Shown here piece after piece: positions 11,417 to 52,119 of a stretch of DNA of 64,000 bases. Numbering within the stretch: position 1 is the first letter of the stretch; the number at the start of each line of letters is the position of its first letter. The stretch spans positions 2,312,501 through 2,376,500 of the forward strand of contig NZ_CP091804.1 in assembly GCF_022024275.1 (NCBI RefSeq), in the 5' to 3' direction. The notes beneath the pieces are model-generated. The model saw nothing but the letters and a program-made list of their open reading frames with translations. It did not search any database and was not told the DNA's origin. Source of the DNA: Sphingopyxis sp. BSN-002. Its GTDB lineage: Bacteria > Pseudomonadota > Alphaproteobacteria > Sphingomonadales > Sphingomonadaceae. Both the position numbers and the translations under genes were made by a program.

Positions 11417-11745
11417 CAGGCCCTCCGGTCGAAACCGGCGATGCCGCGCTCGGGCGCGACGACTTCGGAGACCTGGATGCCATAGCGGCCGTCGACGCTG
11501 ACGATCTCGCCCTTCGCAATGAGGGTGCCGTTGGCATAGATGTCGAGAAGCTCGTTCGCGGCGCGGTCGAGTTCGACGACGCTGCCCTCGGACAGCGCGA
11601 GCAGTTCGGCGAGCGTCATCGAGGTCGAGCCGACCTCGACCGAGACGCGCAGCGAGACGCCGGCGAGCAGGTCGAAATTGGGCGCCCCGGCGATGCTCTT
11701 GTCGCGCCGGTCGGCCCGGGCGGGTGCTTCGGCCATGTCAGTCAT
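11416..11745 (-). CDS. fliN: Flagellar motor switch protein FliN
   Basis: FliN builds the lower cytoplasmic ring of the switch and docks export cargo. The 109-residue protein has a SpoA (surface presentation of antigens) domain: LLAGVSLRVSVEVGSTSMTL followed by VELDRAANELLDIYANGTLI and VSVDGRYGIQVSEV. The start lies within the end of fliM (8-base overlap), as expected for coupled fliM-fliN translation. Confidence 0.95.
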   Translation of the reverse strand: MTDMAEAPARADRRDKSIAGAPNFDLLAGVSLRVSVEVGSTSMTLAELLALSEGSVVELDRAANELLDIYANGTLIAKGEIVSVDGRYGIQVSEVVAPERGIAGFDRRA

Positions 11746-32793: not shown

Positions 32794-32807
32794 TGACACC
32801 GGTTACC
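32794..32807 (+). promoter_or_regulatory. LacI-type operator before kduI
   Basis: TGACACCGGTTACC, centred on the palindrome ACCGGT, lies 48 bases before ATG 32856. The identical 14-mer stands before the pectate lyase and, inverted, before the TonB receptor. A more symmetric version lies beside the lacI gene. Confidence 0.75.
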
Positions 32808-34465: not shown

Positions 34466-35476
34466 ATGACCGGCCGCCTTGTCTTTTTCGGGGAACTGCT
34501 GATCCGCCTCACCGCGCCGGGCAACGAGCTGCTGATGCAGTCGCCGTCACTGGCGCTGCATGTCGGCGGTGCCGAGGCGAATGTCGCGATCGGGCTCGCG
34601 CATCTTGGCCATGATTGCGCGATGGTCAGCAAGATACCCTCGAATGCTCTGGGTCGCGGAGCAGTGGCGGCGGTGCGCGGCGCAGGCGTCGATTGCACCG
34701 CCGTCACGCCTCACCCGGGGCGGATGGGGCTTTATTTCCTGAGCGTCGGGGCGGGGCTTCGCGCGTCCGAAATCGTCTACGACCGCGCGGGGTCGAGTTT
34801 TGCGGCGACCGGGCCGGAGGATTATGATTTCGACCGGCTGCTGGCAGGCGCGGGGCTGCTCCATCTGTCGGGCATCACGCCTGCGCTCCGCCCGCGCTCG
34901 GCCGCGGCGGCCTTGGCGGCGGCGCGCGCGGCGAAGCGGCTCGGCGTTCCGGTCAGCTTCGACGGCAACTATCGCGCGATGCTGTGGGAGGCGTGGGACA
35001 GCGATCCGCGCGCCATCCTGTCCGAGCTCATCGGTAGCGCCGACATCTTGTTCGGTAACCACCGCGACCTGTCGCTGGTGCTGGGACAGGAATTCAGCGG
35101 CGAGGGCGAGGACCGGCGGCGCGAAGCGGCCGAGGCGGGCTTCGCTGCCTTTCCGGACCTCAAGCTGATCGCGTCGACCGCGCGGCACACCGTCACCGCC
35201 GATCATCACCGGATCGCTGCACGCGTCGACCTGCGCGCGAGCTGCCACCAGACCGACGAGATCGACGTCACCGGCATCGTCGACCGGATCGGTGCGGGCG
35301 ACGCCTTTGCGGCAGGCGTTCTGCATGCGCATCTGGCCGGCGGCGATGCCAGGGCGATGGCCGAATCCGGCCTTGCGCTCACCTGTCTCAAACATTCGCT
35401 GCCGGGCGATGCGAGCCGTTTCGGCCAAGGCGATATCGACGCCTTCCACGGCGGCGGGCTCGATGTCCGGCGCTGA
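34466..35476 (+). CDS. kdgK: 2-dehydro-3-deoxygluconokinase KdgK
   Basis: KdgK phosphorylates 2-keto-3-deoxygluconate, giving KDPG for the Entner-Doudoroff aldolase. The 336-residue PfkB-family sugar kinase starts with the FFGELLIRLTAPGNELLMQ region. It has the substrate-side GGAEANVAIGLAHLG near residue 34 and the ATP/catalytic motif DRIGAGDAFAAG at about residues 273-284, whose Asp is the base. It follows kduD by nine bases and overlaps the esterase start by 14. Confidence 0.93.
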   Translation: MTGRLVFFGELLIRLTAPGNELLMQSPSLALHVGGAEANVAIGLAHLGHDCAMVSKIPSNALGRGAVAAVRGAGVDCTAVTPHPGRMGLYFLSVGAGLRASEIVYDRAGSSFAATGPEDYDFDRLLAGAGLLHLSGITPALRPRSAAAALAAARAAKRLGVPVSFDGNYRAMLWEAWDSDPRAILSELIGSADILFGNHRDLSLVLGQEFSGEGEDRRREAAEAGFAAFPDLKLIASTARHTVTADHHRIAARVDLRASCHQTDEIDVTGIVDRIGAGDAFAAGVLHAHLAGGDARAMAESGLALTCLKHSLPGDASRFGQGDIDAFHGGGLDVRR

Positions 35477-37981: not shown

Positions 37982-38379
37982 GGCGCGGGCGCCTTGTTCG
38001 GATAGGCGACGATCAGCACCAGCGGTTCGCCGCCGGTCTGGCGGATGCCGACCTTGGCACCCTTGTAAAGCCACGCGGCGGTCCCCGCCTTCAGCGCCTT
38101 TTCCTCGCCATCCGAATGGACGACGCCGGTGCCCGACAGGACATAATAGATTTCGTCATGGTCGATCGGATGCACCCCGATCGCGGCGCCGACGTGCAGC
38201 GCGCGCTTGCGGAATTCGAAGCTGCGCGGGGCCGGAACGCTGTCGCTGATCCGGTAGGCGGTCGACATGCCGATCGCACCGTGCGGCGGCGCTTCCTCGC
38301 GCACCGTCGTGGCTTCGTCGATCACGACCATCGCGGGCGCAGCTGCCCCGCTCAGCAGCAGTGCGAGCAGTGCACTCAC
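37978..38379 (-). CDS. Small exported cupin-domain protein
   Basis: A 133-residue protein with a short hydrophobic signal (SALLALLLSGAAAPA) and one cupin barrel (HVGAAIGVHPIDHDEIYYVL, then GTGVVHSDGEE). The GTG start overlaps the pectate lyase stop (GTGA) and its own stop overlaps the next gene, so the three are coupled. The pectin-linked cupin KdgF opens the ring of unsaturated uronates, but this protein lacks the usual HxH pair and is exported. The reaction is therefore unknown. A periplasmic or surface role on pectin fragments is inferred. Confidence 0.78.
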   Translation of the reverse strand: MSALLALLLSGAAAPAMVVIDEATTVREEAPPHGAIGMSTAYRISDSVPAPRSFEFRKRALHVGAAIGVHPIDHDEIYYVLSGTGVVHSDGEEKALKAGTAAWLYKGAKVGIRQTGGEPLVLIVAYPNKAPAP

Positions 38380-39755
38380 TTCACGCCTCCGCGCGAATCG
38401 AGATCGCGCGCCGACAGATGTTCCTGCGGCATCGGCGCGGTCTGCGCGGGGTACATCCCCGACTTCGGCTCCATCGTCGCGAGATCCCATTCGGCCTCGA
38501 CGAAAGGCGCGCGGACGGGCGCAGCGACCTTCGGATAGGCGCTGACCTGCTTTTCGTCGTCGATCACCTGTCCGCGGCCTTCGGCGACGAAGAAGAGGAT
38601 ACGGATCTCCTCGGCGTCGCGCGCCCACGGCCGCGCGCCCGCGGTTGCGAGAACAGAGGTTTCGACATCGCGCACCGGCAGGATGTGATAGCCGCCGACC
38701 GGCGCGAGCGGCACCTTGGCGCGGATCAGCTTGGCCTGCGTCTCCCCGTAGCGGCCGAACTCGGGTAGCGCATTGCCATGGCGGTCGACCGCCAGATTGT
38801 CCTTGCCATAATAATCGAGGTCGCCGTCGCCGCCGAGCATCAGGAAGGGCAGGCCCTCGTCGGTATCGTTGCCCCCGCGCATGACATTGCCGATCGCGGT
38901 GATCTGGCCGGTCACATAGGGATGGCCGGTCCATTCGAGATTCATGAGGTTATAGTGCACCGCGCGGTGCTTCGGGTTGTAGATCAGATTGTTGATCATC
39001 AGCACCTGCGCCCCGCCCTTCACCAGTGGCGCGCGCTCGACATTATGTGCCCAGACGTTGCGGTAGAAGACGATGCCGCTGGTATTGTCATGAACGAGCG
39101 AGCCCTTGCTGTGCTCGCCCTTCGGGTGGCTCGCATCGGCGAGTCCCTCGGCGGCGAGATTGTTCGAGAAGGTAACGTTCTTGCTCGTTCCCTCGCGCCA
39201 TTCGGCGACATCCTTGCCGTTGAAGCGCGGGCCCGACGCCGACATATTCTCGTCGATTGCCCACAGAAAGGTGCAGTGATCGACGATGACGTTGTGTGCG
39301 CCGACGGTTGAAAAGGCGTCGGCTTCCCAGCCGCTTCGCTTCGGCTGGCCGTCGACCCCGGTATAGACGCGCAGATGGCGCATCACGACGTCGTGCGTCT
39401 TGAGGTCGATGCCGGTGCGGATCAGCGTGATGCCGGGACCGGGCGCGGTCTGGCCGGCGATCGTCAGCCAGGGCTCGGTAATCGTGAGCGTCTCGCGTCC
39501 CAGATCGATGACGCCGCCGACCTCGAACACGACGATGCGCGGCCCCTTCGCTTCGACCGCGGCCCTGAATGACCCCGGGCCGTCGGCCGCGAGCGTCGTC
39601 ACGCGAATGATTTTCCCGCCGCGTCCTCCTGCCGTCACCGCCGCCGGACCGACCGCGCCGGGGAAGGCGACCGTCGTCGAATCAGCTGCGAACAGGGGTG
39701 GCGGGGTCAGTGCCGGCGCCAGCAAAAGTGTCGCAAACCACAGCTTTTTCAGCAT
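38376..39755 (-). CDS. Secreted pectate lyase (parallel beta-helix, PL1-like)
   Basis: This lyase cuts polygalacturonate by beta-elimination, giving the unsaturated ends that feed KduI. The 459-residue product has a signal peptide ending near PPPLFAADS. A beta-helix domain follows with TAGGRGGKIIRVTTL, PWLTIAGQTAPGPGITLI, NVIVDHCTFLWAIDENMSAS and NLIYNPKHRAVHYNL. ATG 39755 is supported by AAGGAGAGA upstream. An operator with TGACACCGGTTACC lies 58 bases before it. The assignment to a polysaccharide lyase family is from recall of motifs. Confidence 0.88.
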   Translation of the reverse strand: MLKKLWFATLLLAPALTPPPLFAADSTTVAFPGAVGPAAVTAGGRGGKIIRVTTLAADGPGSFRAAVEAKGPRIVVFEVGGVIDLGRETLTITEPWLTIAGQTAPGPGITLIRTGIDLKTHDVVMRHLRVYTGVDGQPKRSGWEADAFSTVGAHNVIVDHCTFLWAIDENMSASGPRFNGKDVAEWREGTSKNVTFSNNLAAEGLADASHPKGEHSKGSLVHDNTSGIVFYRNVWAHNVERAPLVKGGAQVLMINNLIYNPKHRAVHYNLMNLEWTGHPYVTGQITAIGNVMRGGNDTDEGLPFLMLGGDGDLDYYGKDNLAVDRHGNALPEFGRYGETQAKLIRAKVPLAPVGGYHILPVRDVETSVLATAGARPWARDAEEIRILFFVAEGRGQVIDDEKQVSAYPKVAAPVRAPFVEAEWDLATMEPKSGMYPAQTAPMPQEHLSARDLDSRGGVK

Positions 39756-39813
39756 CGCTCTCTCCTTGTTGAAAGGGGTCTTGACATAGACGTCACAATC
39801 CTTCAATCCTTTT

Positions 39814-39827
39814 TGACACCGGTTACC
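39814..39827 (-). promoter_or_regulatory. LacI-type operator before the pectate lyase
   Basis: TGACACCGGTTACC on the + strand, an exact copy of the kduI site, lies 58 bases before the lyase ATG. The divergent TonB receptor gene has its own inverted copy 121 bases away, so the 246-base gap holds one site per promoter. Confidence 0.75.
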
Positions 39828-39948: not shown

Positions 39949-39962
39949 GGTAACCGGTGTCA
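39949..39962 (+). promoter_or_regulatory. LacI-type operator before the TonB-dependent receptor
   Basis: GGTAACCGGTGTCA is the exact reverse complement of the kduI and lyase sites. It ends 39 bases before ATG 40002. Confidence 0.75.
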
Positions 39963-40001: not shown

Positions 40002-42845
40002 ATGATGATGGCAATTCACAACGCGCGGGGCATTCGCACGCTCACCAGATTGGCCTGCGGCGCGTCGCTCGCGGTGCTCGCAGCTTCGCCCGCCTGGGCA
40101 CAAGATACGGCTGAGGCTGCACCCGCAGCGGAAGATGAGATCGTCGTCACCGGCTTTCGCGCCTCGCTCGAGGCGGCGCTCAACGTAAAGCGCGACTCGG
40201 TCGCAGCCGTCGATGCCGTCGTCGCCGAGGATATCGCCAAATTCCCCGACCAGAACCTCGCCGAATCGCTCCAGCGCATTCCGGGCATTTCGATCCAGCG
40301 CGACGGCGGCGAGGGCCGTGCGATCACGGTCCGCGGTCTCGGCGCGCAGTTCACCCGTGTTCGCCTGAACGGGCTGGAGACGGTTGCAACCTCGACCGAC
40401 GGTGCATCGTCGAACCGCGACCGTGCGTTCGACTTCAACGTCTTTGCGTCGGAACTCTTCAGCAGCATCGTTGTCCACAAGACCGCGGAAGCCTCGCTCG
40501 ACGAAGGTTCGCTCGGGGCGGTCGTCGACCTCAACACGGGCAACCCGCTCGGTGCGAAAGACGGCCTCCATGGCGCTCTCTCGCTCGTCGGATCGTACAA
40601 CGACCTGTCGAAGGATCTGGGGCCGCGCGTCGCGGGCCTGCTCAGCTGGCGCAATGTCGACGGTACCTTCGGCGTCTCGGTTTCGGGCGCCTATTCGAAG
40701 AGCGACACGCTCGAGCTCGGCAACAACAGCGTCCGCTGGGCGCAGGCGCGCTTCGATTCGGTCAACGGCACCAACTGCTGGACGACCGCGAACAGTGGCG
40801 GCACCTATGTGCCCGGCACCGCCTGCAATCAGGCCGCGCTTGCCTTTCACCCGCGTATTCCGCGCTACGGTGAAATCGACCACCGCCGCGAGCGCCTGGG
40901 CCTGACCGGTTCGATCCAGTTCGCGCCCACCGAAAGCACCAAGATCTCGCTCGATGCGCTCTATTCGCGGTTTCGCGAGGATCGCGAGGAAAAGTGGGGC
41001 GAGGTCCTGCTCCGGTCCAACGAACGGTCGATCAACGTCGTCAATCCGGTCTATGATTCGAACAACAACATGATCTCGGCGACGCTCAACGACGCCTGGG
41101 TCCGCACCGAACACTATCTCCGCCAGTCGAAAACCGAATTCACCCAGTTCGGCGGCAGCTGGGATCAGGATCTCGGCGACAGCTTCCGTTTCACCCTGCT
41201 CGGCGGCTTCTCGAAGTCGGATGCCGACATTCCGGTCGAGACGACGATCGTCTTCGACGACCGCGACGCGCAGGGATACAGCTACGACTATAGCGACATG
41301 AAGCGGCCGGTGCTGACCTTCGGCACCAGCGTCACCGATCCTGCGAACTTCCAGCTCGCCGAGATCCGCGACCGCCCGTCGAACGTCACCAACAAGTTCA
41401 AGACCGCGCAGCTCCGCACCGAATGGGACGTCACCGACGGCTTCCAGGTGAAGGCGGGCGGTATGTGGCGCCGTTTCAACTTCGACGCGGTCGCCTTCAC
41501 CCGCGACAGTGCGGTATGCGGCAACGGCGGCACCAGCCTCGTCACCAGCACATCGGGGACGATCGCCTGCTCGCCGACCAGCCTGTTCGGCCCGACCGCG
41601 GTCTACGGCTTCCCGGTCACTCCGGCGCTGGCCGAACTGTTCACCCTCGGCAAGGCGGGGCAGCCCTCGGGTACGACGACGCAGTGGCTGATCCCGTCCT
41701 TCCCCGCCGCGACCGATTTCACGCAGCTCTACAATCGCACGGCGGCGCCTGACACCGGCAACACGCGTGCGGTGCAGGAAACGACTTCGGGCGGCTATCT
41801 GCAGTTCGACGTCAAGGGCGAGCTCTTCGGTCTCGAATATGCGGGGAATGCCGGCATCCGCTATGCGCATACCGCGCAATCGTCGCGCGGCGTGCTGTCG
41901 GGCAGCACGGTTACCGTGAAGCGCAGCTACGACGACTGGCTGCCGTCGATGAACATCGCCCTCTATCCGGCGCACGACGTCATCGTCCGCGGCGCCATCG
42001 CCAAGGTCATCACGCGCCCGACGCTCGGCAACCTGACCCCGGGCGGCACGATCGACGGGTTCAACTATCGCATCAGCTACGGCAATCCGCAGCTCGACCC
42101 CTACCGCGCGACCAACTTCGACCTTGGCGTCGAATGGTATTTCGCGCCGGGAGCGGTGCTGTCGGCCGCGGGCTTCGTGAAAAAGGTCGAAAGCTTCCCG
42201 ATCAGCCAGGCCTTCACCGCGACCTTCGCGTCGACCGGGCTGCCGAAGGAGGCGCTGCCGCCAAGCTCGCCCGCCTTCATCAACTTCGATCCGAACCAGC
42301 TCTATACGATCACCGCGAACGTCAATGGCGCGGGTGCGACGCTGAAGGGGGTCGAGCTGGCGGCACAGGTGCCGTTCACGGCCTTCGTCGACCAAGGCTT
42401 CATCAGCCACTTCGGCATCCTCGCGAACGCGACCTTCATCAAGTCGGACGCCGACTATAATGTTCAGGGTCCGGCGACGACGCCCGGCGGCGCGCTGGTG
42501 AACGCGGTGCGTTCGGCGACGCTGTTCGGGGTGTCGAAGCGCGCCTACAACGGAACGCTCTATTACGATGATGGCGCGTTCAGCGCGCGTATCTCGGCCA
42601 GCTATCGTAGCCGGTACATCGATGCGAACAGCGGCACCGGCAACGTCTTCGAGGGCTATGGCGCGACGTGGAACATGGACGCGTCGGTCCGCTACAAGGT
42701 GACGGAATGGATGGAGCTGTCGGTCGAGGGCAACAATCTGCTCGATACCTACCGCTATCGCTTCACCGATTTCGACGCCGACCGCAATTACGAGAACAAC
42801 CATTTCGGCCGCACCATCCTGTTCGGTGCGCGCTTCAAGATGTGA
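40002..42845 (+). CDS. TonB-dependent receptor, probable pectin oligomer importer
   Basis: This outer membrane gated channel moves substrate into the periplasm with TonB energy. The 947-residue product has a signal peptide (ACGASLAVLAASPAWA), a TonB box-like DEIVVTGFRAS near residue 47, a plug domain (FPDQNLAESLQRIPGISIQR, AITVRGLGAQFTRVRLNGLE) and a 22-strand-type barrel ending in RTILFGARFKM with a terminal hydrophobic residue. Three ATGs stand in tandem (40002, 40005, 40008); the AGGGAGG site best fits 40008. Pectin specificity is inferred from the shared operator and neighbours. Confidence 0.93.
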   Translation: MMMAIHNARGIRTLTRLACGASLAVLAASPAWAQDTAEAAPAAEDEIVVTGFRASLEAALNVKRDSVAAVDAVVAEDIAKFPDQNLAESLQRIPGISIQRDGGEGRAITVRGLGAQFTRVRLNGLETVATSTDGASSNRDRAFDFNVFASELFSSIVVHKTAEASLDEGSLGAVVDLNTGNPLGAKDGLHGALSLVGSYNDLSKDLGPRVAGLLSWRNVDGTFGVSVSGAYSKSDTLELGNNSVRWAQARFDSVNGTNCWTTANSGGTYVPGTACNQAALAFHPRIPRYGEIDHRRERLGLTGSIQFAPTESTKISLDALYSRFREDREEKWGEVLLRSNERSINVVNPVYDSNNNMISATLNDAWVRTEHYLRQSKTEFTQFGGSWDQDLGDSFRFTLLGGFSKSDADIPVETTIVFDDRDAQGYSYDYSDMKRPVLTFGTSVTDPANFQLAEIRDRPSNVTNKFKTAQLRTEWDVTDGFQVKAGGMWRRFNFDAVAFTRDSAVCGNGGTSLVTSTSGTIACSPTSLFGPTAVYGFPVTPALAELFTLGKAGQPSGTTTQWLIPSFPAATDFTQLYNRTAAPDTGNTRAVQETTSGGYLQFDVKGELFGLEYAGNAGIRYAHTAQSSRGVLSGSTVTVKRSYDDWLPSMNIALYPAHDVIVRGAIAKVITRPTLGNLTPGGTIDGFNYRISYGNPQLDPYRATNFDLGVEWYFAPGAVLSAAGFVKKVESFPISQAFTATFASTGLPKEALPPSSPAFINFDPNQLYTITANVNGAGATLKGVELAAQVPFTAFVDQGFISHFGILANATFIKSDADYNVQGPATTPGGALVNAVRSATLFGVSKRAYNGTLYYDDGAFSARISASYRSRYIDANSGTGNVFEGYGATWNMDASVRYKVTEWMELSVEGNNLLDTYRYRFTDFDADRNYENNHFGRTILFGARFKM

Positions 42846-42867: not shown

Positions 42868-42906
42868 AAGGCCCGGTCTTCCAAGCGAGGGCCGGGCCTT
42901 TTCTTT
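42868..42906 (+). terminator. Intrinsic terminator of the TonB receptor gene
   Basis: AAGGCCCGG (42868-42876) pairs with CCGGGCCTT (42892-42900), followed by TTCTTT. The next gene's ribosome site starts within ten bases, so the GH43 gene needs read-through or a promoter inside the terminator region. Confidence 0.85.
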
Positions 42907-42922
42907 GTCCGAGGAGAAGAAT

Positions 42923-44521
42923 GTGACCGACCGGCGCGAGATGCTGAAACTGGCGGGCGCGGGCCTGATCGCGAGCGGGCTGCCCGGCGCCGCGCGTGCG
43001 GAGGCAGCCGAGCCGTCGGCGGCGCCGGCGTCTTCTTGGGCGAGGGGCCTCGACGGCCAGCGCAAGGCCGACCTCGGCGACGGGCGTTTCCTCAATCCGA
43101 TCATGGCCGGCGACCATCCCGATCCTTCGATCCTGAAGGACGGGCGCGACTATTACATGACCTTCTCGACCTTCGATTCCTATCCGGGGCTGGTGATCTG
43201 GCATTCGCGCGATCTGGTGAACTGGCGACCGGTCGGTCCCGCGCTGACGAAGAATATCGGAGCGGTCTGGGCGCCCGAACTGGTGAAGCACAAGGGACGC
43301 TATTTTCTCTACATCCCGACCAAGGGCCCGAACACGAGCTGGGTGATCTGGGCCGACCGCATCGAAGGACCGTGGAGCGATCCCGTCGACCTGAACCTGC
43401 CGAACCATATCGATCCCGGCCATGCGGTTGGCGAGGACGGGTCGCGCTGGCTGTTCCTGTCAGGGGGCGATCGCGTGCGGCTGTCGGATGACGGGCTCAG
43501 TCGCATCGGCGATCCCGAACATGTCTATGACCCGTGGCGCTATCCGTCGGACTGGGTGGTCGAGGGATTCTCGCCCGAAGGGCCGAAAATCATGCGGCAC
43601 GGCGACCATTTCTACATGATCACCGCAGTGGGCGGCACGGCCGGGCCCCCCACCGGGCACATGGTGATCGCTGCGCGTTCGAAGTCGATCCATGGTCCCT
43701 GGGAAAATTGCCCCGCGAACCCGATCGTGCGCACGACCTCGCTGACGGAGAAATGGTGGTCGCGTGGTCATGCGACCCTGATCGAAGGCCCGGCGGGCGA
43801 CTGGTGGAGCGTTTATCACGGTTTCGAAAACGGCTATTGGACCCTCGGGCGGCAGACGCTGCTCGACCCGGTCGAGTGGACCGACGACGGCTGGTTCCGC
43901 ATGAAGGGCGGCGATCTGTCGCAGCCGATCGCCAAACCGAAAGGCGGCGTCGCGGGACCGCATGGCATGGCACTGTCGGACGATTTTGCGACGCTCGCGC
44001 TCGGCGCCAGATGGAATTTCTTCAAGCCCGCCGCCGACGAACGCAGCCGCGCGCGCGTCGAAAACAATACGCTGGTGCTGAAGGCGCGCGGCAAGGCGCC
44101 GGTCGACAGTTCGCCCTTGCTGTTGATTGCGGGCGATCAGGCGTACCGCTTCGAATGCGACATCGAGATCGCACCGGGCGGCACTGCCGGGCTGATCCTC
44201 TTCTACGACGAGCGGCTCTATTGCGGACTCGGCTTCGACGGCGAGCGCTTCGTGACGCACCAATATGGGATCGAACGCGCACGCCCCGCCAATCCGCACG
44301 GCCGCAAGATGCGGATGCGGGTCACCAACGATCGCCATATCGTCACCTATGACACCAGCGGCGACGGCGGGAAGACGTGGGTTCGCTTTGATCGCGGGAT
44401 GGAGGTGTCGGGCTATCACCACAATGTCCGCGGCGGTTTCCTGATGCTGCGGCCCGGCCTCTATTCGGCTGGTGAAGGCGAAGCGCGCTTCCGCAACTTC
44501 AAATTCGAGGCGCTCGCCTAG
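42923..44521 (+). CDS. Exported glycoside hydrolase family 43-like enzyme with C-terminal lectin-like domain
   Basis: The 532-residue product has a twin-arginine-like signal (TDRREMLKLAGAGLIASGL). It has a five-bladed propeller domain of GH43 type: MAGDHPDPSILKDGRDYYMT carries the usual Asp base, with GAVWAPELVKHKGRYFLYIP and a WWSRGHATLIEGPAGDWWSV segment. A C-terminal beta-sandwich (residues about 340-530) resembles DUF1349-type domains. GTG 42923 is chosen because GAGGAG lies six bases upstream. It probably trims arabinose or galactose side chains of pectin (inferred). Its stop overlaps uxaA's stop at CTAG. Confidence 0.87.
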   Translation: MTDRREMLKLAGAGLIASGLPGAARAEAAEPSAAPASSWARGLDGQRKADLGDGRFLNPIMAGDHPDPSILKDGRDYYMTFSTFDSYPGLVIWHSRDLVNWRPVGPALTKNIGAVWAPELVKHKGRYFLYIPTKGPNTSWVIWADRIEGPWSDPVDLNLPNHIDPGHAVGEDGSRWLFLSGGDRVRLSDDGLSRIGDPEHVYDPWRYPSDWVVEGFSPEGPKIMRHGDHFYMITAVGGTAGPPTGHMVIAARSKSIHGPWENCPANPIVRTTSLTEKWWSRGHATLIEGPAGDWWSVYHGFENGYWTLGRQTLLDPVEWTDDGWFRMKGGDLSQPIAKPKGGVAGPHGMALSDDFATLALGARWNFFKPAADERSRARVENNTLVLKARGKAPVDSSPLLLIAGDQAYRFECDIEIAPGGTAGLILFYDERLYCGLGFDGERFVTHQYGIERARPANPHGRKMRMRVTNDRHIVTYDTSGDGGKTWVRFDRGMEVSGYHHNVRGGFLMLRPGLYSAGEGEARFRNFKFEALA

Positions 44522-46032
44522 AGCGTCACACCCGATTTCCAGATCGCGATGTCGCGTTCCTCGTTGAGTTCGGCCTTCGTCGGCATGCCCGAGGCGGTCG
44601 CGGCGATCAGGTCGAGCAGCGCGTCGGCGCTGTCGTCGAAGCCCGCGTCGAGCACCTGTCCCGCATCGAAATCGATCCAGCCCGCCTTGCGCTGCGCAAG
44701 CGGGCTGTTCGACGCGATCTTCAGCGTCGGCGCGGGAAAGCCAAGCGGTGTCCCGCGGCCGGTGGTGAACAGGATCACCGTCGCGCCCGCCGCGGTCAGT
44801 GCGGTCGACGACACCGCGTCGTTGCCAGGCGCTTCAAGCAGGGTCAGGCCGGGCAGGCTGGCCTCGCCGCCATAGCGCTGGACATCGACCACCGGCGCCT
44901 TGCCGCCCTTCTGCACCGCGCCGAGCGACTTTTCCTCGAGCGTGGTGATCCCACCGGCGATATTGCCGGGCGAGGGATTCTCGCTGACAGGCTCGCCGTT
45001 GCGGATGAAATATTGCTTGAAGTCCTGCACCAGCGCGACAGTCGCGTCGAACACATCGCGCGACACCGCGCGCTCCATCAGCATCTGCTCGGCACCGAAG
45101 ATTTCGGGGATTTCGGTGAGGATGACCTTGCCGTTCGCAGCGGCGACCGCATCGGCCATGCGCCCGACGAGCGGGTTCGCGGTCAGGCCCGACAGCCCGT
45201 CCGACCCGCCGCATTTGACGCCCAGCACCAGCTTCGACAGCGGCACTTCTGTGCGCGGGGTGTCGGCACAGGCGTCGACCAGCTCGTCGACCAGCGCGAG
45301 GCACGCGGCCTCGTCGTCCTCGACCGCCTGCGCCGACAGGGTGCGGATGCTCACGCGGCGTTCGGGCGCGATTCCCTCCAGCAGCGGGGCGAGCTGGTTG
45401 CTCTCGCACCCCAGCCCGACGATCAGCACGCCACCGGCGTTGGGGTGCTGGGCGAGCGCCGCAAGCAGCGCGCGCGTGTGGCCGAGGTCGTCGCCGAGCT
45501 GCGAGCAGCCGAAGGGATGCTTGAAGGCATGCACGCCATCGACGCGCCCGGCGTGGCGCGTTCCCGCAATCCTTGCGACGCGCGCGGCGAGATTGCCGAC
45601 GCAGCCGACGGTCGGGATGATCCAGACCTCGTTACGCGTGCCGACGCGTCCGTCGGCGCGGACATAGCCCTCGAAGGTCTTCGAAGACGGGTGGGTTTGC
45701 GCAGCCTCAGGCGCTTCGTAATGATAATCTCCAGCACCGCTCAGCGCGGTCGCCAGATTGTGGCTGTGGACGTGCGCGCCGGGCTCGATGTCGGCGGTCG
45801 CCAGCCCGATCGGGAAGCCATATTTGATTACCGGCGCACCCTTGGCGATCGGCACCAGCGCGACCTTGTGTCCGCGCGCGACCTGATCGGCGAGGCGGAG
45901 GTTGATACCGCCGATCGAGAGATCGGTACCCGCGTCCAGATCGGCGATCGCTGTCGCGACATTGTCCGACGGATGGATATGCAGCGCCGTCACCGGTGTC
46001 ATATCGACCGCGGCAGGGCCATCGTTCGCCAT
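44518..46032 (-). CDS. uxaA: Altronate dehydratase UxaA
   Basis: UxaA dehydrates D-altronate to 2-keto-3-deoxygluconate in the galacturonate route. The 504-residue product has the N-terminal SAF-like domain (LRLADQVARGHKVALVPIAK) and the large C-terminal domain (FKHPFGCSQLGDDLGHTRAL, VGLGCESNQLAPLLEGI, KLVLGVKCGGSDGLSGLTAN, VILFTTGRGTPLGFPAPTLK), including the conserved cysteines. Full length for a fused UxaA. It starts four bases after the lacI stop, so it is co-transcribed with its likely regulator and separated from uxaC. ATG at residue 11 is an alternative start. Confidence 0.94.
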   Translation of the reverse strand: MANDGPAAVDMTPVTALHIHPSDNVATAIADLDAGTDLSIGGINLRLADQVARGHKVALVPIAKGAPVIKYGFPIGLATADIEPGAHVHSHNLATALSGAGDYHYEAPEAAQTHPSSKTFEGYVRADGRVGTRNEVWIIPTVGCVGNLAARVARIAGTRHAGRVDGVHAFKHPFGCSQLGDDLGHTRALLAALAQHPNAGGVLIVGLGCESNQLAPLLEGIAPERRVSIRTLSAQAVEDDEAACLALVDELVDACADTPRTEVPLSKLVLGVKCGGSDGLSGLTANPLVGRMADAVAAANGKVILTEIPEIFGAEQMLMERAVSRDVFDATVALVQDFKQYFIRNGEPVSENPSPGNIAGGITTLEEKSLGAVQKGGKAPVVDVQRYGGEASLPGLTLLEAPGNDAVSSTALTAAGATVILFTTGRGTPLGFPAPTLKIASNSPLAQRKAGWIDFDAGQVLDAGFDDSADALLDLIAATASGMPTKAELNEERDIAIWKSGVTL

Positions 46033-46036
46033 CCCG

Positions 46037-47089
46037 TCAGCCTTTCGGTGGCGCGACCGACTGGCGCTCGATGAAGGTCGAGGGCATCACCGGGCTTTCG
46101 TCGTCGGCGGCCTTCGCGTTCGGGCCGAGGAAGTCCGACACCAGCGTGCGGGCGGCGCGCGATCCCATCTCGCGGATTGGCCAACGTACCGTACTCAGCG
46201 CGGGCCAGATATGGGTTGCGGTCGGCGAATCGTCGAAGCCGATGATCGACAGGTCGGCAGGGACCGAGAGGCCCTTGCCGTGCGCGACGCTCATCACGCC
46301 CGCGGCCATTTCGTCGTTCGACACGAACACCGCGGTTGGCGGCTGCGGCAGGGAGAGCAGCGACTCTCCGGCCTCGACGCCTGCGGTGTAGCGATAATTG
46401 CCGGGCGCATAGAGTTCGTCCGGCAATGACAGGCCCGCCCCGGCGAGCGCTTCGCGAAAGCCCTCCTCGCGCTCGGCGGCCGACCGGAAGCCGACGGGGC
46501 CGCGGACGAAGCCGATGCGGCGATGGCCGAGCGCGATCAGCTTGCCGACCGCCTCGGCGACGACCTCGCGGTCGTTCGACGACACGCAATGCCGCGCATC
46601 GTCGAGCAGCGCCGAGCCGACGCGGACGTAGCGCACGCCCAGATCCTCGCAGAGCTTGGCGAGATCGTCGTTTTCCGAAATCGGCGGCAGCAGCATCGCG
46701 CCGATCGGGCGCTGCTTTTCGAGGAAGACGCGGACGTCCTCGAGCATCCTGTCCGACCCCCGATCGACCGGACGGACGAGCAGCGCAAGGTCGCTGTCCT
46801 TGATCGCGTCGAGCACGCCCTGCTGAAAGTTCAGGACGGTCTGCGCATTCGGATTGTCGTGAAGCAGCGCGATCAGGAAGTTGCGGCGAAAGGCCAGCGC
46901 GCGCGCCTGCGGATTCGGAACGAAGCCCAGCGTCTCGATCGCTTTGCGCACCGCATCGCGCGTCTTGTCGCTGATGAACTCGGAACGGTTGATGACGCGG
47001 CTGACGGTCTTTTTCGAAACCCCGGCGAGGGCTGCGACGTCGTTGATCGTCGGTTGCTTTCCATTCTGTCCGCCCGTGCGTGCCGCCAT
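46037..47089 (-). CDS. LacI-family regulator of the pectin/hexuronate locus
   Basis: This 350-residue repressor has an N-terminal helix-turn-helix and hinge (INDVAALAGVSKKTVSRVIN, FVPNPQARALAFRRN) and a periplasmic-binding-protein-like effector domain (GHRRIGFVRGPVGFRSAAER, VFVSNDEMAAGVMSVAHGKG, LSIIGFDDSPTATHIWPALS). ATG 47089 is chosen; GTG 47107 in frame is possible. The near-perfect palindrome in its upstream region and three copies before other pectin genes suggest it controls itself, uxaA and the whole locus. The inducer is likely 2-keto-3-deoxygluconate or a uronate, by analogy. Confidence 0.9.
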   Translation of the reverse strand: MAARTGGQNGKQPTINDVAALAGVSKKTVSRVINRSEFISDKTRDAVRKAIETLGFVPNPQARALAFRRNFLIALLHDNPNAQTVLNFQQGVLDAIKDSDLALLVRPVDRGSDRMLEDVRVFLEKQRPIGAMLLPPISENDDLAKLCEDLGVRYVRVGSALLDDARHCVSSNDREVVAEAVGKLIALGHRRIGFVRGPVGFRSAAEREEGFREALAGAGLSLPDELYAPGNYRYTAGVEAGESLLSLPQPPTAVFVSNDEMAAGVMSVAHGKGLSVPADLSIIGFDDSPTATHIWPALSTVRWPIREMGSRAARTLVSDFLGPNAKAADDESPVMPSTFIERQSVAPPKG

Positions 47090-47217
47090 GATCTGTTTTC
47101 TTCCCACTCCGCGCTGCGCACCAAAGCGCCTGTCCTCGAATTCTCCGGCCGATTCCTTGTCCTAGTGGGGACTCGGCCGGGCAAAATCAACCGTGGGTAC
47201 GGCTAATTGCTTGCTTT

Positions 47218-47230
47218 TGACACCGGTGTC
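47218..47230. promoter_or_regulatory. Perfect palindromic operator between lacI and the FAH-like gene
   Basis: TGACACCGGTGTC contains the 12-base perfect palindrome GACACCGGTGTC (47219-47230), the most symmetric of four sites in the locus. It lies 27 bases before ATG 47258 and 128 bases before the lacI ATG, so one site could control both directions. Confidence 0.8.
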
Positions 47231-47257
47231 TTTTAGGACATCCGGCGGAAGAGGGAA

Positions 47258-48052
47258 ATGACAAAGATGCCGGCAACGAACGAACAGCAAAATATCGCCA
47301 AGGCGTTTCTCGCGGCACGCGCGAAAAAGACACCGCTTACCCTGTATCCCGGCGCAATGCCCGAAACGATGGGCGAGGCCTATGCGATTCAGGATGCGGC
47401 GATCGGATTCGACGGCCGGATGGTCGGCGGCTGGAAGGTCGGGCGTATCCCGGCGGAGCTGGTCGGCCGCTATGGCGACAACCGGCTGGCCGGCCCCATC
47501 TTCAGCGACGAAATTTTCGACGGCGGTGCGGGCGAGCGCCCCGTCATGCCGGTCTATACCGACGGCTTCGCTGCTGCCGAGGCCGAGGTTCTGCTGTGCC
47601 TCGGCGATGTCGGTACGCGCGATTACGACATCGATTCGGTGCGTGACTGCATCACCGACGCCCGCACGGGGATCGAGATCGCAAGTTCGCCTTATCCGGC
47701 GATCAACCGGCATGGCCCCGCGGTCACTGCTTCGGACTATGGCAACAACAAGGGACTGATCCTTGGCCCTTCGATCCCCGACTGGCGGACCGCCGACCTG
47801 ATCCGCATGCCGGTCGAATTCTTCATAGACGACACGCCGGTGGGTGCGGCGACGATGGAAACGATGCTCGACGGTCCGTTCGGATCGGCGCTGTTCCTGA
47901 TCCGCACGCTGCGCGCGCGCGGTATCGCGATTCACGCCGGTACGTGGGTGTCGACCGGCGCGATCACCGGCATCCACGAAATCCGTCCCGGTCAGCGGGG
48001 CGATGCGCTCTTCGACGGAAAAATCCGCGTCGGCTGCACGATTACCGGATAA
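47258..48052 (+). CDS. FAH/MhpD-like hydratase-hydrolase of unknown substrate
   Basis: The 264-residue product resembles 2-keto-4-pentenoate hydratases (MhpD) within the fumarylacetoacetate hydrolase superfamily. Visible features are GEAYAIQDAAI, GGWKVGRIPAEL, an AAEAEVLLCLGDV segment with the acidic metal ligands, and HAGTWVSTGAITGIHEIRPG near the end. It is first in an operon with the transporter, uxaC and the uxuB-like gene, 27 bases after the strongest operator. No classical hexuronate step needs such an enzyme; related family members cleave or hydrate keto-deoxy sugar acids. Substrate not assigned. Confidence 0.85.
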   Translation: MTKMPATNEQQNIAKAFLAARAKKTPLTLYPGAMPETMGEAYAIQDAAIGFDGRMVGGWKVGRIPAELVGRYGDNRLAGPIFSDEIFDGGAGERPVMPVYTDGFAAAEAEVLLCLGDVGTRDYDIDSVRDCITDARTGIEIASSPYPAINRHGPAVTASDYGNNKGLILGPSIPDWRTADLIRMPVEFFIDDTPVGAATMETMLDGPFGSALFLIRTLRARGIAIHAGTWVSTGAITGIHEIRPGQRGDALFDGKIRVGCTITG

Positions 48053-48075
48053 GACACAAGAATCGGGAGAGAGAT

Positions 48076-49383
48076 ATGGCGCAGGCATTTGCGGACGGAG
48101 GTGCGGCGTCGCCGGTTCCCCGGTCCGGTCGCTACCGCTGGCTGATCGTCGGGGTGCTGTTCGCCGCCACCACGGTCAATTATATCGACCGCACCATGCT
48201 CGGCCTGCTCGCGCCGACGCTCGGCACCGAGCTCGGGTGGAGCGAGAATGACTATGGCAACATCGTCACCGCCTTTCAGGCCGCCTATGCGCTAGGCTTC
48301 CTCCTCATGGGCTGGATGATCGACCGCTTCGGGCCGAAAATCGGCTATGCGGTCGCGATCTCGATCTGGACGATCGGCCATGTCGCGCACGGCTTCGCTT
48401 CCTCGGTCGTCTCGTTCATGCTGGCGCGCGTCATTCTCGGCGTGGGCGAGGCGGGGCATTTCCCGTCGGTCGTTCGCGCATCGAGCGAATGGTTTCCCCA
48501 GAAGGAGCGCTCCTATGCCATCGGCTGGGTCAACAGCGCGACGACGATCGGCGTCATCCTGACCGCGCCCACGATCGCGCTGTTCATGCGCTTCCTCGGC
48601 TTCGACTGGCGCGAGACCTTCATCGTCACGGGCGCATTCGGCGTGATCCTGCTGCTGCTATGGCTCTGGCTCTACAGCAATCCGCGCGAGAGCGGGAAGG
48701 TCAGCGAGGCCGAACTGGCGTGGATCGAGCATGACCCGCCCGAAAAGATCGAGCGGCTCGGCTGGGGTGCGATCGTCACCAAGCGCGAGGCCTGGGCCTA
48801 TGCGACCGGCAAGTTCCTGACCGACCCGGTCTGGTTCCTGATGCTCTTCTGGCTGCCCAAATATTTCAGCACCACCTACAATGTCGATCTGAAGGTCGTG
48901 CTGCTGCCGATGATCATCATGTACCTGCTCTCCGACGTCGGCAGCATCCTCGGCGGCTGGGTGTCGTCGAAGCTGATCCAGACCGGGCGCAGCGTCAACT
49001 TCGCGCGCAAGGCGACGATGCTCGGCGCGGGCTGCTGCGTCCTGCCTTTGCTGTTCGTCTCTGGGCTCGACAATATGTGGCTCGCGGTCGTGCTGATCGG
49101 CATCGCGCTCGCCGGGCATCAGGCCTTTTCGTCGACGATCCTGTCGATTCCGCCCGACATGTTTCCGAAGCGCGCCGTCGGTTCGGTAATCGGGCTGGGC
49201 GGCTTTGCCGGCGGCGTCGGCGGAATGATCATGGCGAAGTCGACCGGCCTCGTACTCGATGCGACCGGCGGCAATTACACGCTCATCTTTGCGGCCTGCA
49301 CCACCGTCTATTTCCTCGCCGTGCTGGCGATCCACATCCTCAGCCCGCGCCTCGAGCCGGTGACCGTCGAAAGCAAAACCTGA
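48076..49383 (+). CDS. MFS hexuronate transporter, ExuT-like
   Basis: This is a probable proton symporter for galacturonate and glucuronate in the inner membrane. The 435-residue product has 12 expected helices. It has the anion:cation symporter family signatures NYIDRTMLGLLAPTLGTELG, WMIDRFGPKIGYAVAISIWT and ARVILGVGEAGHFPSVVRAS. ATG 48076 follows GGGAGAGAGAT; the upstream in-frame residues overlap the previous gene. It sits between the FAH-like gene and uxaC (four-base gap), which supports hexuronate as substrate. Confidence 0.92.
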   Translation: MAQAFADGGAASPVPRSGRYRWLIVGVLFAATTVNYIDRTMLGLLAPTLGTELGWSENDYGNIVTAFQAAYALGFLLMGWMIDRFGPKIGYAVAISIWTIGHVAHGFASSVVSFMLARVILGVGEAGHFPSVVRASSEWFPQKERSYAIGWVNSATTIGVILTAPTIALFMRFLGFDWRETFIVTGAFGVILLLLWLWLYSNPRESGKVSEAELAWIEHDPPEKIERLGWGAIVTKREAWAYATGKFLTDPVWFLMLFWLPKYFSTTYNVDLKVVLLPMIIMYLLSDVGSILGGWVSSKLIQTGRSVNFARKATMLGAGCCVLPLLFVSGLDNMWLAVVLIGIALAGHQAFSSTILSIPPDMFPKRAVGSVIGLGGFAGGVGGMIMAKSTGLVLDATGGNYTLIFAACTTVYFLAVLAIHILSPRLEPVTVESKT

Positions 49384-49387: not shown

Positions 49388-50800
49388 ATGTCGCGCCCGC
49401 TGCTGCTCTCCCCCGACCGCCTCTTTCCGTCCGATCCGGTCCAGCGCGATATTGCGCGCCGGCTCTACAAGGAGGTTGCGGGGCTGCCGATCATCAGCCC
49501 GCACGGGCACACCGATCCGCGCTGGTTCGCTGGCAACGCGCCCTTCGGCAACGCGACAGAGATGCTGCTGCACCCCGACCATTATGTGTTCCGGATGCTC
49601 TATTCGCAGGGGATTCCGCTCGATGCTCTTGGCATCCGCAACCCGCAAGCCGATCCGCGCGAGAGCTGGCGGCTGTTCGCGCAGAATTACCACCTCTTTC
49701 GCGGCACTCCGTCGCGGATGTGGATGGACTGGGTGTTCGCCGAGGCGTTCGGCTTCGATGTACAGTTCTCGGCCGAAACATCGGACCTCTATTATGATCG
49801 TATCACCGAGGCGCTCGCGACCGACGCCTTCCGCCCGCGCGCTCTGTTCGACCGCTTCGGGATCGAGGTGATCGCGACGACCGAAAGCCCGCTCGATACG
49901 CTCGAGCATCATGCCGAGATCCGCGTCGCGAACGCGAACGGCGAATGGAGCGGTCGCGTCATCACCGCCTATCGCCCCGATCCGGTGGTCGACCCGGAAT
50001 TCGAAGGCTTCTACGCCAATCTCGCGCGCTTCTCCGAGTTATCGGGCGAAGATGCCTACAGTTACGCCGGCTATCTCGCCGCGCACCGCAACCGCCGCGC
50101 CTTCTTCGCCGACATGGGCGCGACCTCGACCGACCACGGCCACCCGACCGCAGCAACCGCTGACCTGTCGGACGCCGAGGCCGAGGCGCTGTTCGCGCGC
50201 GTCACCGGCGCCGATGTCAGCGCCGCCGATGCCGAGTTGTTCCGCGCGCATATGCTGACCGTCATGGCGGGGATGAGCCTCGACGACGGTCTGGTCATGC
50301 AAATCCACCCGGGTGCGTTCCGTAACCACAATCCCTGGCTGTTCAAGCATTACGGGCGCGACAAGGGTGCCGATATTCCCATGTCGACCGACTATGTCCA
50401 TGCGCTGCGCCCGCTGCTCGGCCGCTATGGCAATGAGGCGGGGCTGACGATCATCCTCTTCACGCTCGACGAGACCAGCTACGCGCGGGAACTGGCGCCG
50501 CTTGCAGGGCACTATCCGGCCTTGAAGCTCGGCCCCGCCTGGTGGTTTCACGACAGTCCCGAAGGAATGCGCCGCTTCCGCAATCAGATGACCGAGACCG
50601 CGGGCTTCTACAACACGGTCGGCTTCAACGACGACACCCGCGCTTTCCTGTCGATCCCTGCGCGCCACGATGTCGCGCGCCGCATCGACTGCGGCTTCCT
50701 CGCGCAGCTCGTCGCCGAGCACCGGATGGAGGAATGGGAAGCGGCCGAACTCGCGACCGACCTCAGCTACAATCTCGCCAAGGCCGCGTACAAGCTGTGA
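49388..50800 (+). CDS. uxaC: Glucuronate/galacturonate isomerase UxaC
   Basis: UxaC converts D-galacturonate to tagaturonate and D-glucuronate to fructuronate. The 470-residue amidohydrolase-fold protein has the metal-site motif LPIISPHGHTDPRWFA near residue 37, TESPLDTLEHHAEI, the long VMQIHPGAFRNHNPWLFKHY segment and the ending GFNDDTRAFLSIPARHDVAR. Length is standard. Its TGA shares bases with the GTG start of the next gene, coupling isomerase and reductase. Confidence 0.96.
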   Translation: MSRPLLLSPDRLFPSDPVQRDIARRLYKEVAGLPIISPHGHTDPRWFAGNAPFGNATEMLLHPDHYVFRMLYSQGIPLDALGIRNPQADPRESWRLFAQNYHLFRGTPSRMWMDWVFAEAFGFDVQFSAETSDLYYDRITEALATDAFRPRALFDRFGIEVIATTESPLDTLEHHAEIRVANANGEWSGRVITAYRPDPVVDPEFEGFYANLARFSELSGEDAYSYAGYLAAHRNRRAFFADMGATSTDHGHPTAATADLSDAEAEALFARVTGADVSAADAELFRAHMLTVMAGMSLDDGLVMQIHPGAFRNHNPWLFKHYGRDKGADIPMSTDYVHALRPLLGRYGNEAGLTIILFTLDETSYARELAPLAGHYPALKLGPAWWFHDSPEGMRRFRNQMTETAGFYNTVGFNDDTRAFLSIPARHDVARRIDCGFLAQLVAEHRMEEWEAAELATDLSYNLAKAAYKL

Positions 50801-52119
50801 GGCTGTCGGCTGAAACGCCGCTCCCGGCGTCGGTGCAGGCACCGGGTTATGACCGCGGCGTGCAGGCGGCGGGGATCGTCCATATCGGCATCGGCGCGTT
50901 TCATCGCGCGCATCAGGCGGTCTACACCGACGACGCGATGGCGGCGGGCGACCGCGATTGGGGCATCGTTGGCGTGTCGCTGCGTTCTGGCGATGTCGCG
51001 TCGCAGCTGAATCCTCAGGACGGGCTCTACTCGGTGAGCATGCGCAGCGCGGCGGGTAGCGAATTGCGGTTGATCGGGGCCGTACAGAAGGTGCTGGTCG
51101 CGGCGGACGATCCGCAGGCGGTGGTCGATGCGATCGCTGCACCGACGACACATATCGTCAGCTTCACCGTCACCGAGAAGGGTTATCTGCGCGGCTCCGA
51201 CGGTGCGCTCGATCTCGACGCTGCCAAGGGTGCGTCGAGCCTCTACCGCTTCGTCGGTGCGGCGCTTGCCGCGCGCAAGGCGTCTGGCCTGTCCGGATTG
51301 ACCCTGCTCAGCTGCGACAACCTCGCCAGTAATGGCGCGGCGCTGAAGGCGCTGATGCGCCAGTATCTTGCCGCGGAATATTCCCATCTGGTGGATTGGT
51401 TCGACCGCGAATGCTGCTGCCCCGCGACGATGATCGACCGCATCGTTCCCGCGACGACCGATGCCGACCGCGCCGCCGTCGAAGCGGCGCTCGGTGTACG
51501 CGACGAGGGTGCGGTGGTCACCGAAGGCTTCAGCCAGTGGGTGATCGAGGATGATTTCGCCGGTCCGCGTCCGCGCTGGGAAAAGGTCGGTGCCGAACTG
51601 GTCGCCGACGTCGCGCCCTATGAGACCGCGAAACTGCGCATGCTCAACGGCGCGCATTCGGCGCTTGCCTACATCGGGCTGGGGGCGGGGCATGAATTCG
51701 TCCATCAGGCGATCGCCGACCCCGCCATTCGTCCGGTCATCGAACGGCTGATGCGCGATGAAGCCGCGCCGACGATCGATGCCGCGCCGGGGCAGGATCT
51801 GTCGGCCTATGCCGACGCGCTGCTCGACCGCTTCGCCAATCCGGCGCTCCATCACAGGCTGATCCAGATCGCGATGGACGGCAGCCAGAAGATTCCGCAG
51901 CGCTGGCTGGAGACGCTCGCTTGGCATCAGAAGCGGGGGCGGCGCTGTCCGTCGCTCGAAGCCGCCATCGCGGCATGGATCGCCTTCCTGCGGAGCGAGC
52001 ATCCGGTTGACGATCCGCTGGCCGACAAGCTGCGCGAAGCCGCCGCAGCTCCCGACGCGATGCAAAAGCTGTTCGGTGACGGCGGCCTGATCGCCTCGGA
52101 CTGGCGACCGGAGACCTAA
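50797..52119 (+). CDS. uxuB: Mannitol dehydrogenase family hexuronate reductase, UxuB-like
   Basis: The 440-residue NAD-dependent reductase matches fructuronate reductase UxuB more than tagaturonate reductase UxaB: GIVHIGIGAFHRAHQAVYTD near the N-terminus, IVSFTVTEKGYLRGSDGALD, WVIEDDFAGPRPRWEKVGAE and AKLRMLNGAHSALAYIGLG. The start is GTG 50797 overlapping the uxaC stop (GTGA). The cluster has uxaA but no uxuA. The enzyme may therefore act on tagaturonate or both sugars, or uxuA is elsewhere. Last gene of the operon, followed by a repeat hairpin. Confidence 0.88.
   Translation: MRLSAETPLPASVQAPGYDRGVQAAGIVHIGIGAFHRAHQAVYTDDAMAAGDRDWGIVGVSLRSGDVASQLNPQDGLYSVSMRSAAGSELRLIGAVQKVLVAADDPQAVVDAIAAPTTHIVSFTVTEKGYLRGSDGALDLDAAKGASSLYRFVGAALAARKASGLSGLTLLSCDNLASNGAALKALMRQYLAAEYSHLVDWFDRECCCPATMIDRIVPATTDADRAAVEAALGVRDEGAVVTEGFSQWVIEDDFAGPRPRWEKVGAELVADVAPYETAKLRMLNGAHSALAYIGLGAGHEFVHQAIADPAIRPVIERLMRDEAAPTIDAAPGQDLSAYADALLDRFANPALHHRLIQIAMDGSQKIPQRWLETLAWHQKRGRRCPSLEAAIAAWIAFLRSEHPVDDPLADKLREAAAAPDAMQKLFGDGGLIASDWRPET

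Follow-up and report, generated by a model that had tools for sequence, protein, structure and literature searches.

A diverged MhpD-like protein as a probable non-homologous replacement for KdgF in the pectin clusters of sphingomonads

The window, a stretch of 64,000 nucleotides from Sphingopyxis sp. BSN-002 (contig NZ_CP091804.1, positions 2,312,501 to 2,376,500), contains a pectin cluster that runs from about 32.8 kb and includes genes for KduI, KduD, a PfkB protein, esterases, a cupin, PelZ, a TonB receptor, GH43 and UxaA (Table 1). KDPG aldolase, the end of the route, is present in the same genome. An open reading frame with an ATG start, divergent from a LacI-family regulator gene, encodes a protein of 264 amino acids, dubbed FAHx here. 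The genes that follow it encode a transporter, UxaC and a UxuB-like dehydrogenase, and UxaC scored 579.8 bits against the NCBIfam glucuronate isomerase model (cut-off, 387). The open reading frames, the gaps between them and the NCBIfam match agree with the operon order given in an earlier note on this DNA.

Table 1. Features of the pectin cluster and the FAHx operon (positions in the window)
Feature	Position	Strand	Basis or remark
Weaker operator match, 3 mismatches	32794..32807	.	upstream of kduI
KduI, 5-keto-4-deoxyuronate isomerase	32856..33701	+	83.5% identity to a plasmid gene annotated kduI
KduD-type SDR	33701..34456	+	position as KduD in relatives, one of them annotated kduD
KDG kinase-like PfkB protein	34466..35476	+	same position in relatives; N. 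aromaticivorans copy annotated 'sugar kinase'
PelZ-like pectate lyase	38376..39779	-	
Two operator matches, 3 mismatches each	39814..39827, 39949..39962	.	between pelZ and TonB receptor
TonB-dependent receptor	40002..42845	+	ORF; TonB-dependent receptors annotated in related clusters
GH43 glycoside hydrolase	42905..44521	+	
UxaA-like altronate/galactarate dehydratase family protein	44518..46032	-	
Operator match, 2 mismatches	45988..46001	.	just inside the listed uxaA start
LacI-family regulator, divergent from FAHx	46037..47107	-	
LacI-type operator upstream of FAHx	47218..47231	.	motif match count and shuffles
FAHx, diverged MhpD-like FAH-fold protein	47258..48052	+	ORF; fold and metal/Lys residues; co-occurrence; KdgF/FAHx exchange in PL17 clusters
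MFS transporter, operon gene 2	48067..49383	+	14-bp gap after FAHx
UxaC, glucuronate/galacturonate isomerase	49388..50800	+	4-bp gap after MFS; exceeds NCBIfam cut-off
UxuB-like dehydrogenase (mannitol_dh-type)	about 50797..52119	+	start codon uncertain

Seven matches to TGACACCGGTGTCA with at most 3 mismatches were found in the window. The best of them, TGACACCGGTGTCT, is the one upstream of FAHx and contains a perfect 12-bp palindrome; two others, at 33739 and 41750, are intragenic. The shuffled window gave a mean of 1.65 matches, and seven were reached in none of 100 shuffles. The most symmetric operator thus lies directly before FAHx, as previously claimed. For each gene, sites that differed from the motif at no more than 2 positions and lay in the 250 bp before it were counted across the fetched loci, which were not de-duplicated. 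Such a site preceded FAHx in 123 of 151 cases, LacI in 67 of 110, the TonB receptor in 59 of 144, PelZ in 34 of 79 and UxaA in 26 of 62, and it was rare before KduI (3/69), the RpiB-like gene (1/39), MFS (1/129) and UxaC (0/57). Six scrambled palindromes, applied as a control to the first 40 sources, gave 0 to 2 sites each versus 56 for the operator. Among the genes counted, FAHx is the one with the most constant operator. Since strong sites are rare before KduI, a regulator common to FAHx and the isomerase is not demonstrated by the operator counts, and their rarity before both KduI and the RpiB-like gene was counted against a joint role with the isomerase.

FAHx matched no Pfam family at E ≤ 1e-3, including FAA_hydrolase and the GH88/GH105 family PF07470. 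The match to the NCBIfam MhpD model (PRK11342 equivalog; 4.1e-6, 26.2 bits) was far under the cut-off of 350, and a single-sequence search against the PDB reached MhpD only weakly, at 0.0018. A profile of 47 FAHx orthologs found NahK and MhpD at 4.9e-14 to 1.3e-13; ortholog profile A5 was preferred to A2 because the latter had taken in one aromatic-type hydratase (L066). The AlphaFold model built from the ortholog alignment had a pLDDT of 94.9 and a pTM of 0.91, and in Foldseek it returned the hydratases and decarboxylases of the MhpD/HpcG/NahK group first (8ih6, 1sv6 and 2wqt were among the top hits; TM, 0.82 to 0.86), indicating that FAHx has the FAH fold. The assignment to the MhpD-like branch of the FAH superfamily is therefore based on profile and fold and not on a Pfam score, and the earlier label 'FAH/MhpD-like' is upheld by the clear fold match despite the low bit score and the lack of a Pfam hit. 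With this fold FAHx falls outside the KdgF family, which is defined by a cupin fold and by sequence.

Lys60, Glu108, Glu110 and Glu140 of FAHx align with E. coli MhpD and were kept in all 75 sampled family rows. We take the three glutamates to be the metal-binding triad and Lys60 to be the active-site lysine. Asp84, which is also Asp in MhpD, was found in 39 of 52 rows from pectin clusters and in none of 9 rows from PL17 clusters. At positions Arg76, Pro80, Gly103, Pro145 and His240, E. coli MhpD has other residues; His240 was present in 75/75 family rows, and His was not among the residues listed at this position for the generic MhpD-like proteins (6 of 11 listed). In the tree, the 46-row FAHx family formed a clade with support of 100/100, separate from the 11 generic rows. 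Public annotation names the members of this family 2-keto-4-pentenoate hydratase, FAH family protein or hypothetical protein.

The class-level search gave FAHx matches at 1e-8 in 69 of 240 genomes. Seven relatives (E < 1e-40), from bacteria of the same class and other families, adjoin LacI, Kdu, UxaC or pectate lyase genes, and ten matches at 6.9e-26 or weaker were placed among the generic MhpD-like rows in the tree. A separate FAHx clade, also with support of 100/100, comprises the copies of L058, L060, L062, L282, L288, L289 and L198; Arg76 is not conserved in it, and TRAP transporter genes are near five of the seven.

In fetched stretches of at most about 20 kb, the common neighbors of FAHx are LacI, an MFS or TRAP transporter, KduI or an RpiB-like protein, KduD, KDG kinase and pectate lyase. 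On plasmid pNL2 of N. aromaticivorans, for example, an altronate dehydratase gene, a '2-keto-4-pentenoate hydratase' gene (SARO_RS18430), MFS, LacI, the RpiB-like gene, kduD, a sugar kinase gene and a pectate lyase gene occur together. After removal of 7 duplicates and exclusion of L055, L056, L066 and L068, and with the window entered as 36001 to 58500, 134 non-duplicate FAHx loci were obtained. An isomerase was within the fetched stretch in just 81 of these loci, which was counted against a role in the branch of 5-keto-4-deoxyuronate (DKI), and UxaC was within it in 46. All inspected FAHx loci were pectin or PL17 clusters, none of them a meta-cleavage context.

Some loci carry further genes of related type. 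In Sphingopyxis HIX and PET50 (L101 and L103), a second pectin-type FAHx (70 to 73% identity) is located between a beta-helix lyase-like gene and kduI; in L058 the beta-helix lyase-like gene is under the Pfam cut-offs. In L049 (genome G250), FAHx is adjoined by a gene at 10335 to 11471 on the plus strand for a 378-aa protein with a C-terminal Pfam FAA_hydrolase domain, followed by an SDR-like gene (judged by its N-terminus), so that a second, different FAH-type gene is present in this pectin cluster.

The distribution of FAHx was determined in a sample of 396 Sphingomonadales genomes by tblastn, since some genes, such as KduI in L190, were missed in gene calling. FAHx (E ≤ 1e-10) was found in 113 genomes, KduI (1e-30) in 63 and UxaC (1e-30) in 107. 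An RpiB-family protein located beside KduD in place of KduI (1e-40) was found in 57; it corresponds to DhuI, which the available text of PMC12838403 describes as isofunctional with KduI. FAHx and either isomerase occurred together in 108 genomes, FAHx alone in 5, an isomerase alone in 5 and neither in 278, giving an odds ratio of about 1200. Because the genomes share ancestry, Fisher p-values overstate independence, and the pattern itself is taken as the evidence. The genomes with FAHx and no isomerase were G083, G122, G158, G178 and G224; those with an isomerase and no FAHx were G113 (62% complete), G132, G263, G274 and G334. In G083 and G224 the FAHx is of the pectin type and no isomerase was detected genome-wide, which was counted against the DKI-branch role.

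The association with UxaC was looser, with both genes in 80 genomes, FAHx alone in 33 and UxaC alone in 27. The co-occurrence check proposed in the earlier note, against kduI and uxaC, thus shows that FAHx tracks KduI or the RpiB-like protein more closely than UxaC. Of the 24 UxaC genomes with neither isomerase, 22 had no FAHx, and 30 genomes contained FAHx and an isomerase and no UxaC. These results indicate that FAHx does not belong to the UxaC route. As that route also makes KDG, they indicate further that FAHx is not a KDG-level enzyme, and on the strength of the UxaC genomes without an isomerase both roles were rejected.

KdgF is a cupin that converts 4,5-unsaturated uronate to DKI, an activity seen as loss of A235; the KdgF paper is said to be that of Hobbs et al. 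from 2016. The KdgF query (A4) was an alignment of KdgF genes taken from kduD/RpiB clusters of Rahnella and Vibrio and from a plasmid of Alteromonas, and its Rahnella member was checked against PDB structures of KdgF. The profile search found no match to KdgF in the genome of the window at E ≤ 1e-3. Among the 118 genomes with FAHx or an isomerase, strong matches (E ≤ 1e-30) were found in 12 and weak ones (1.1e-11 to 7.2e-4) in 8. The five isomerase-only genomes were searched for KdgF and none was found. KdgF was likewise missing from 21 of the 24 loci with an isomerase and no FAHx, the other 3 being sources of the KdgF query; both results were counted against a need for a dedicated enzyme.

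The small cupin gene directly behind PelZ (37978 to 38379, minus strand) recurs in the pectin clusters of other loci (60 tblastn matches), and in some species the N-terminus of its product resembles a signal sequence. The idea that it might be a hidden KdgF was rejected: the protein shares 20% identity with KdgF, has no His at KdgF position 84 and lacks the C-terminal Arg/Asp. Its matches to the KdgF structures 5fpx and 5fpz were at 0.026 to 0.027.

The 12 genomes with strong KdgF matches have KdgF besides FAHx, in different clusters, which was counted against a replacement. All 12 KdgF genes are located with a PL17-type lyase, a Chondroitinase_B-type lyase, GntR and MFS genes, and 11 of them with an SDR gene inside the fetched stretch. 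The PL17-type lyase of one such locus, L286, matched Pfam Hepar_II_III_C, Alginate_lyase and Alg17C_C, and the KdgF-bearing clusters are accordingly classed as alginate-type. None of these clusters contains FAHx; in L282 and L283 the FAHx of a neighboring LacI/RpiB pectin cluster is nearby. A second FAHx copy was found in 9 sampled genomes of the genus of the window (L057, L059, L061 and L297 to L302). All nine copies are in one cluster type with GntR, a TonB receptor, PL17, MFS, SDR and a PfkB kinase, in which PL17 was identified by Pfam in L059 and by 53 to 58% identity to the L286 lyase in the others. The GntR, PL17, MFS and SDR proteins of L057 and L059 share 48 to 59% identity with their counterparts in the KdgF clusters. 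KdgF was not found in any of the nine clusters, and the genomes contain no strong KdgF match, two of them having weak ones. The genome of the window itself has no second FAHx copy, the best other match being 27% at E 0.175, and a search for PL17 clusters in plasmids gave 9 records, none from a sphingomonad.

The inspected PL17 clusters thus comprise 12 with KdgF, 9 with FAHx and none with both inside the cluster. Both sets were picked by their marker, KdgF or the second FAHx, and are not an unselected sample of PL17 clusters; in these loci, KdgF and FAHx each accompany this cluster type, and neither occurs together with the other. The position of FAHx in the clusters of the genus differs from that of KdgF, which was counted against a replacement, as was the fact that the polymer is assigned there from Pfam matches and similarity. 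In the tree, the nine PL17-cluster copies formed a clade (100/100) inside a clade (96/95) with 18 FAHx rows from pectin clusters; their branch is long (1.62), and the exact placement is less sure. In all nine, Asn150 is replaced by His and Asn163 by Ile. From the tree and the relatedness of the clusters, a copy of an FAHx of the pectin type seems to have entered a kind of alginate-type cluster in which KdgF is found in other genomes. Common to the pectin and the alginate-type clusters are the 4,5-unsaturated uronate and the 5-keto compound formed from it.

These results suggest that FAHx is probably a non-homologous replacement for KdgF, which would ketonise the ring-opened unsaturated (galact)uronate to DKI. 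Its coupling to KduI or the RpiB-like isomerase places FAHx in the lyase branch and not in the UxaC branch; its location in one operon with UxaC in the genus of the window was counted against this placement. In the proposed mechanism, pectate lyase would yield unsaturated galacturonates, and the ring of the imported monomer would open. The 2-hydroxy-2-enoate so formed is an alpha-keto acid in its enol form, a type of substrate on which MhpD/FAH enzymes act. A metal bound by Glu108, Glu110 and Glu140 would, together with Lys60, hold the enol carboxylate and allow protonation of C4 to give DKI, which would pass through KduI or the RpiB-like isomerase, KduD and KDG kinase to KDPG aldolase. The metal triad and Lys60 could be sufficient for ketonisation, and the absence of Asp84 from some members of the family would be easier to reconcile with a tautomerase than with a hydratase. 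We infer the reaction and the use of a metal, with ring opening, ketonisation or both as the catalyzed part.

Enol-keto tautomerization has been put forward as the original activity of the FAH fold, and FAHD proteins are described as enol-keto tautomerases in the available text of PMC10825186. According to the accessible part of PMC8778563, ring opening together with enol-keto tautomerization is thought to be the spontaneous step. The portion of PMC11381880 at hand reports BeKdgF to be about 8-fold faster than the spontaneous reaction, so that the step is partly spontaneous, which was counted against a need for FAHx. The same authors favor ring opening alone as the catalyzed part, and this would suit an enol-keto enzyme less well. 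In the accessible portions of the open-access literature, no FAH/MhpD-type protein is assigned to the step from unsaturated to 5-keto uronate. An FAH family protein is encoded in the alginate locus of Vibrio sp. C42, which contains kdgF as well, and is called not apparently alginate-related by its authors in the part of PMC13390454 that is accessible.

Several expectations of the earlier note fit this interpretation. The link of FAHx to the catabolism of pectin sugars is supported by co-occurrence and by the pectin-cluster context, the isomerase route of UxaC, UxuB and UxaA indeed leaves it without a step, and its chemistry is likely to involve a keto-deoxy uronate. The view that no known step was left to fill was not supported, as the conversion of unsaturated galacturonate to DKI is a free main-line step and the genome gave no match to KdgF, which usually performs it. 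The suggested removal of a side product or a new branch from pectin sugars was not supported either.

A bolder proposal, which is unlikely, is that FAHx founds a family of FAH-fold unsaturated-uronate hydratases that would replace two unrelated enzyme types and act on mono- and digalacturonide to give DKI and galacturonate. A copy would have been recruited to the alginate-type cluster, with Asn150His and Asn163Ile possibly marking a switch from pectin- to alginate-type stereochemistry. Rather unlikely is the narrower idea that FAHx adds water at C4=C5 in unsaturated digalacturonide, before the unsaturated residue is released, so that the dimer splits into DKI for KduI and galacturonate for UxaC, and that it takes the place of GH88/GH105 and PL22 and not of KdgF alone. 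UxaC in the operon would fit the second product. GH88/105 (PF07470) was found in only 3 of 28 FAHx genomes tested and PL22 (PF14583) in 2 of 27, one of them over the cut-off, with neither found in the genome of the window. By tblastn, none of the 134 non-duplicate FAHx loci had a GH88 or PL22 relative, versus 12 of the 24 isomerase loci without FAHx (11 after dropping L193, Pfam DUF4861), a set of picked exceptions, paralogs and annotated outgroups on which a Fisher test is descriptive. Pfam confirmed the relatives in L190, L211, L212 and L217, and that in L196 is a tblastn match. However, GH28 and exo-pectate lyases are outside this tally, Asp84, which aligns with an Asp of MhpD, is lost in the nine PL17-cluster paralogs, and KdgF acts on the monomer, which the PL17 clusters of the genus should also yield. 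One genome, G062, has two RpiB-like loci, L205 with FAHx and no PL22 relative found and L212 with PL22 (Pfam) and no FAHx.

It is also quite improbable that FAHx serves in repair or detoxification of by-products of 5-keto-4-deoxyuronate, such as furanoid hydrates or diketo forms of DKI/DEH, a role near the view of the earlier note. With such a role FAHx would be tied to the DKI/DEH branch in the same way, DEH is described as reactive in the accessible part of PMC8778563, and metabolite repair enzymes are listed among FAH enzymes in the available text of PMC10825186. A repair enzyme would not, however, be expected to replace KdgF in the way seen in the PL17 clusters, nor to have the most constant operator of the genes counted. 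A dehydratase or hydrolase acting on KDG or another 2-keto-3-deoxy acid in a nonphosphorylative branch, like KdaD or XylX, is very unlikely: FAH-type enzymes do act on 2-keto-3-deoxypentonates, with KdaD named in the available text of PMC10825186, but KDG is also made in UxaC-only genomes, where FAHx is mostly lacking, and the window's genome has KDPG aldolase and a KDG-kinase-like gene in the cluster. It is hardly credible that FAHx is a 2-keto-4-pentenoate hydratase of aromatic meta-cleavage located here by chance, as its nearest characterized folds (MhpD, HpcG and NahK) and annotations such as that of SARO_RS18430 might suggest, given scores far under the NCBIfam cut-offs, its presence in the pectin clusters of several genera, and a clade and a conserved His240 that set it apart from the generic rows.

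As the probable replacement for KdgF, FAHx would share with that cupin (5fpx, 5fpz, 5fq0 and 7zyb) a predicted reaction and a pathway slot, and KdgF genes adjoin RpiB-like/KduD genes in Rahnella and Vibrio or go with PL17 and SDR genes. The two differ in that KdgF is a cupin of about 106 aa and FAHx a 264-aa protein of the FAH fold, and no sequence relation was seen between them. MhpD, HpcG and NahK have the fold, the Glu triad, Lys60 and the handling of enols and keto acids in common with FAHx (TM, 0.78 to 0.85), whereas identity is 18 to 22% and their context is aromatics, not pectin. The FAHD/OAT1 oxaloacetate tautomerases, which bring about the enol-to-keto conversion of an alpha-keto acid according to the accessible part of PMC10825186, have the FAH fold as well but belong to another subfamily (TM of about 0.57 to FAHD1). 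GH88/GH105 and PL22 oligogalacturonate lyase belong to this pathway too, where their substrates are unsaturated galacturonate ends or oligomers, and they are of other Pfam families, neither of which FAHx matches. Among the KduI/DhuI-KduD clusters treated in the available text of PMC12838403, that of the window is of the KduI-KduD kind, and its relatives carry the RpiB-type isomerase beside KduD; the dhuI-kduD arrangement (type G) is reported there only from Sphingomonadaceae and Erythrobacteraceae.

The same 2025 survey, as far as its accessible text goes, takes the step as nonenzymatic in most strains without kdgF, and its main text has no match for 'fumarylacetoacetate' or 'hydratase' (PMC12838403). 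If the proposed role is true, FAHx would fill this step. It would give a function to the sphingomonad family with the public annotations named above, and it would be a case in which one enzyme takes the place of a non-homologous one, with a natural control in the related PL17 clusters, which bear either KdgF or FAHx. Such a role would also agree with the idea that enol-keto chemistry is central to what the FAH fold does.
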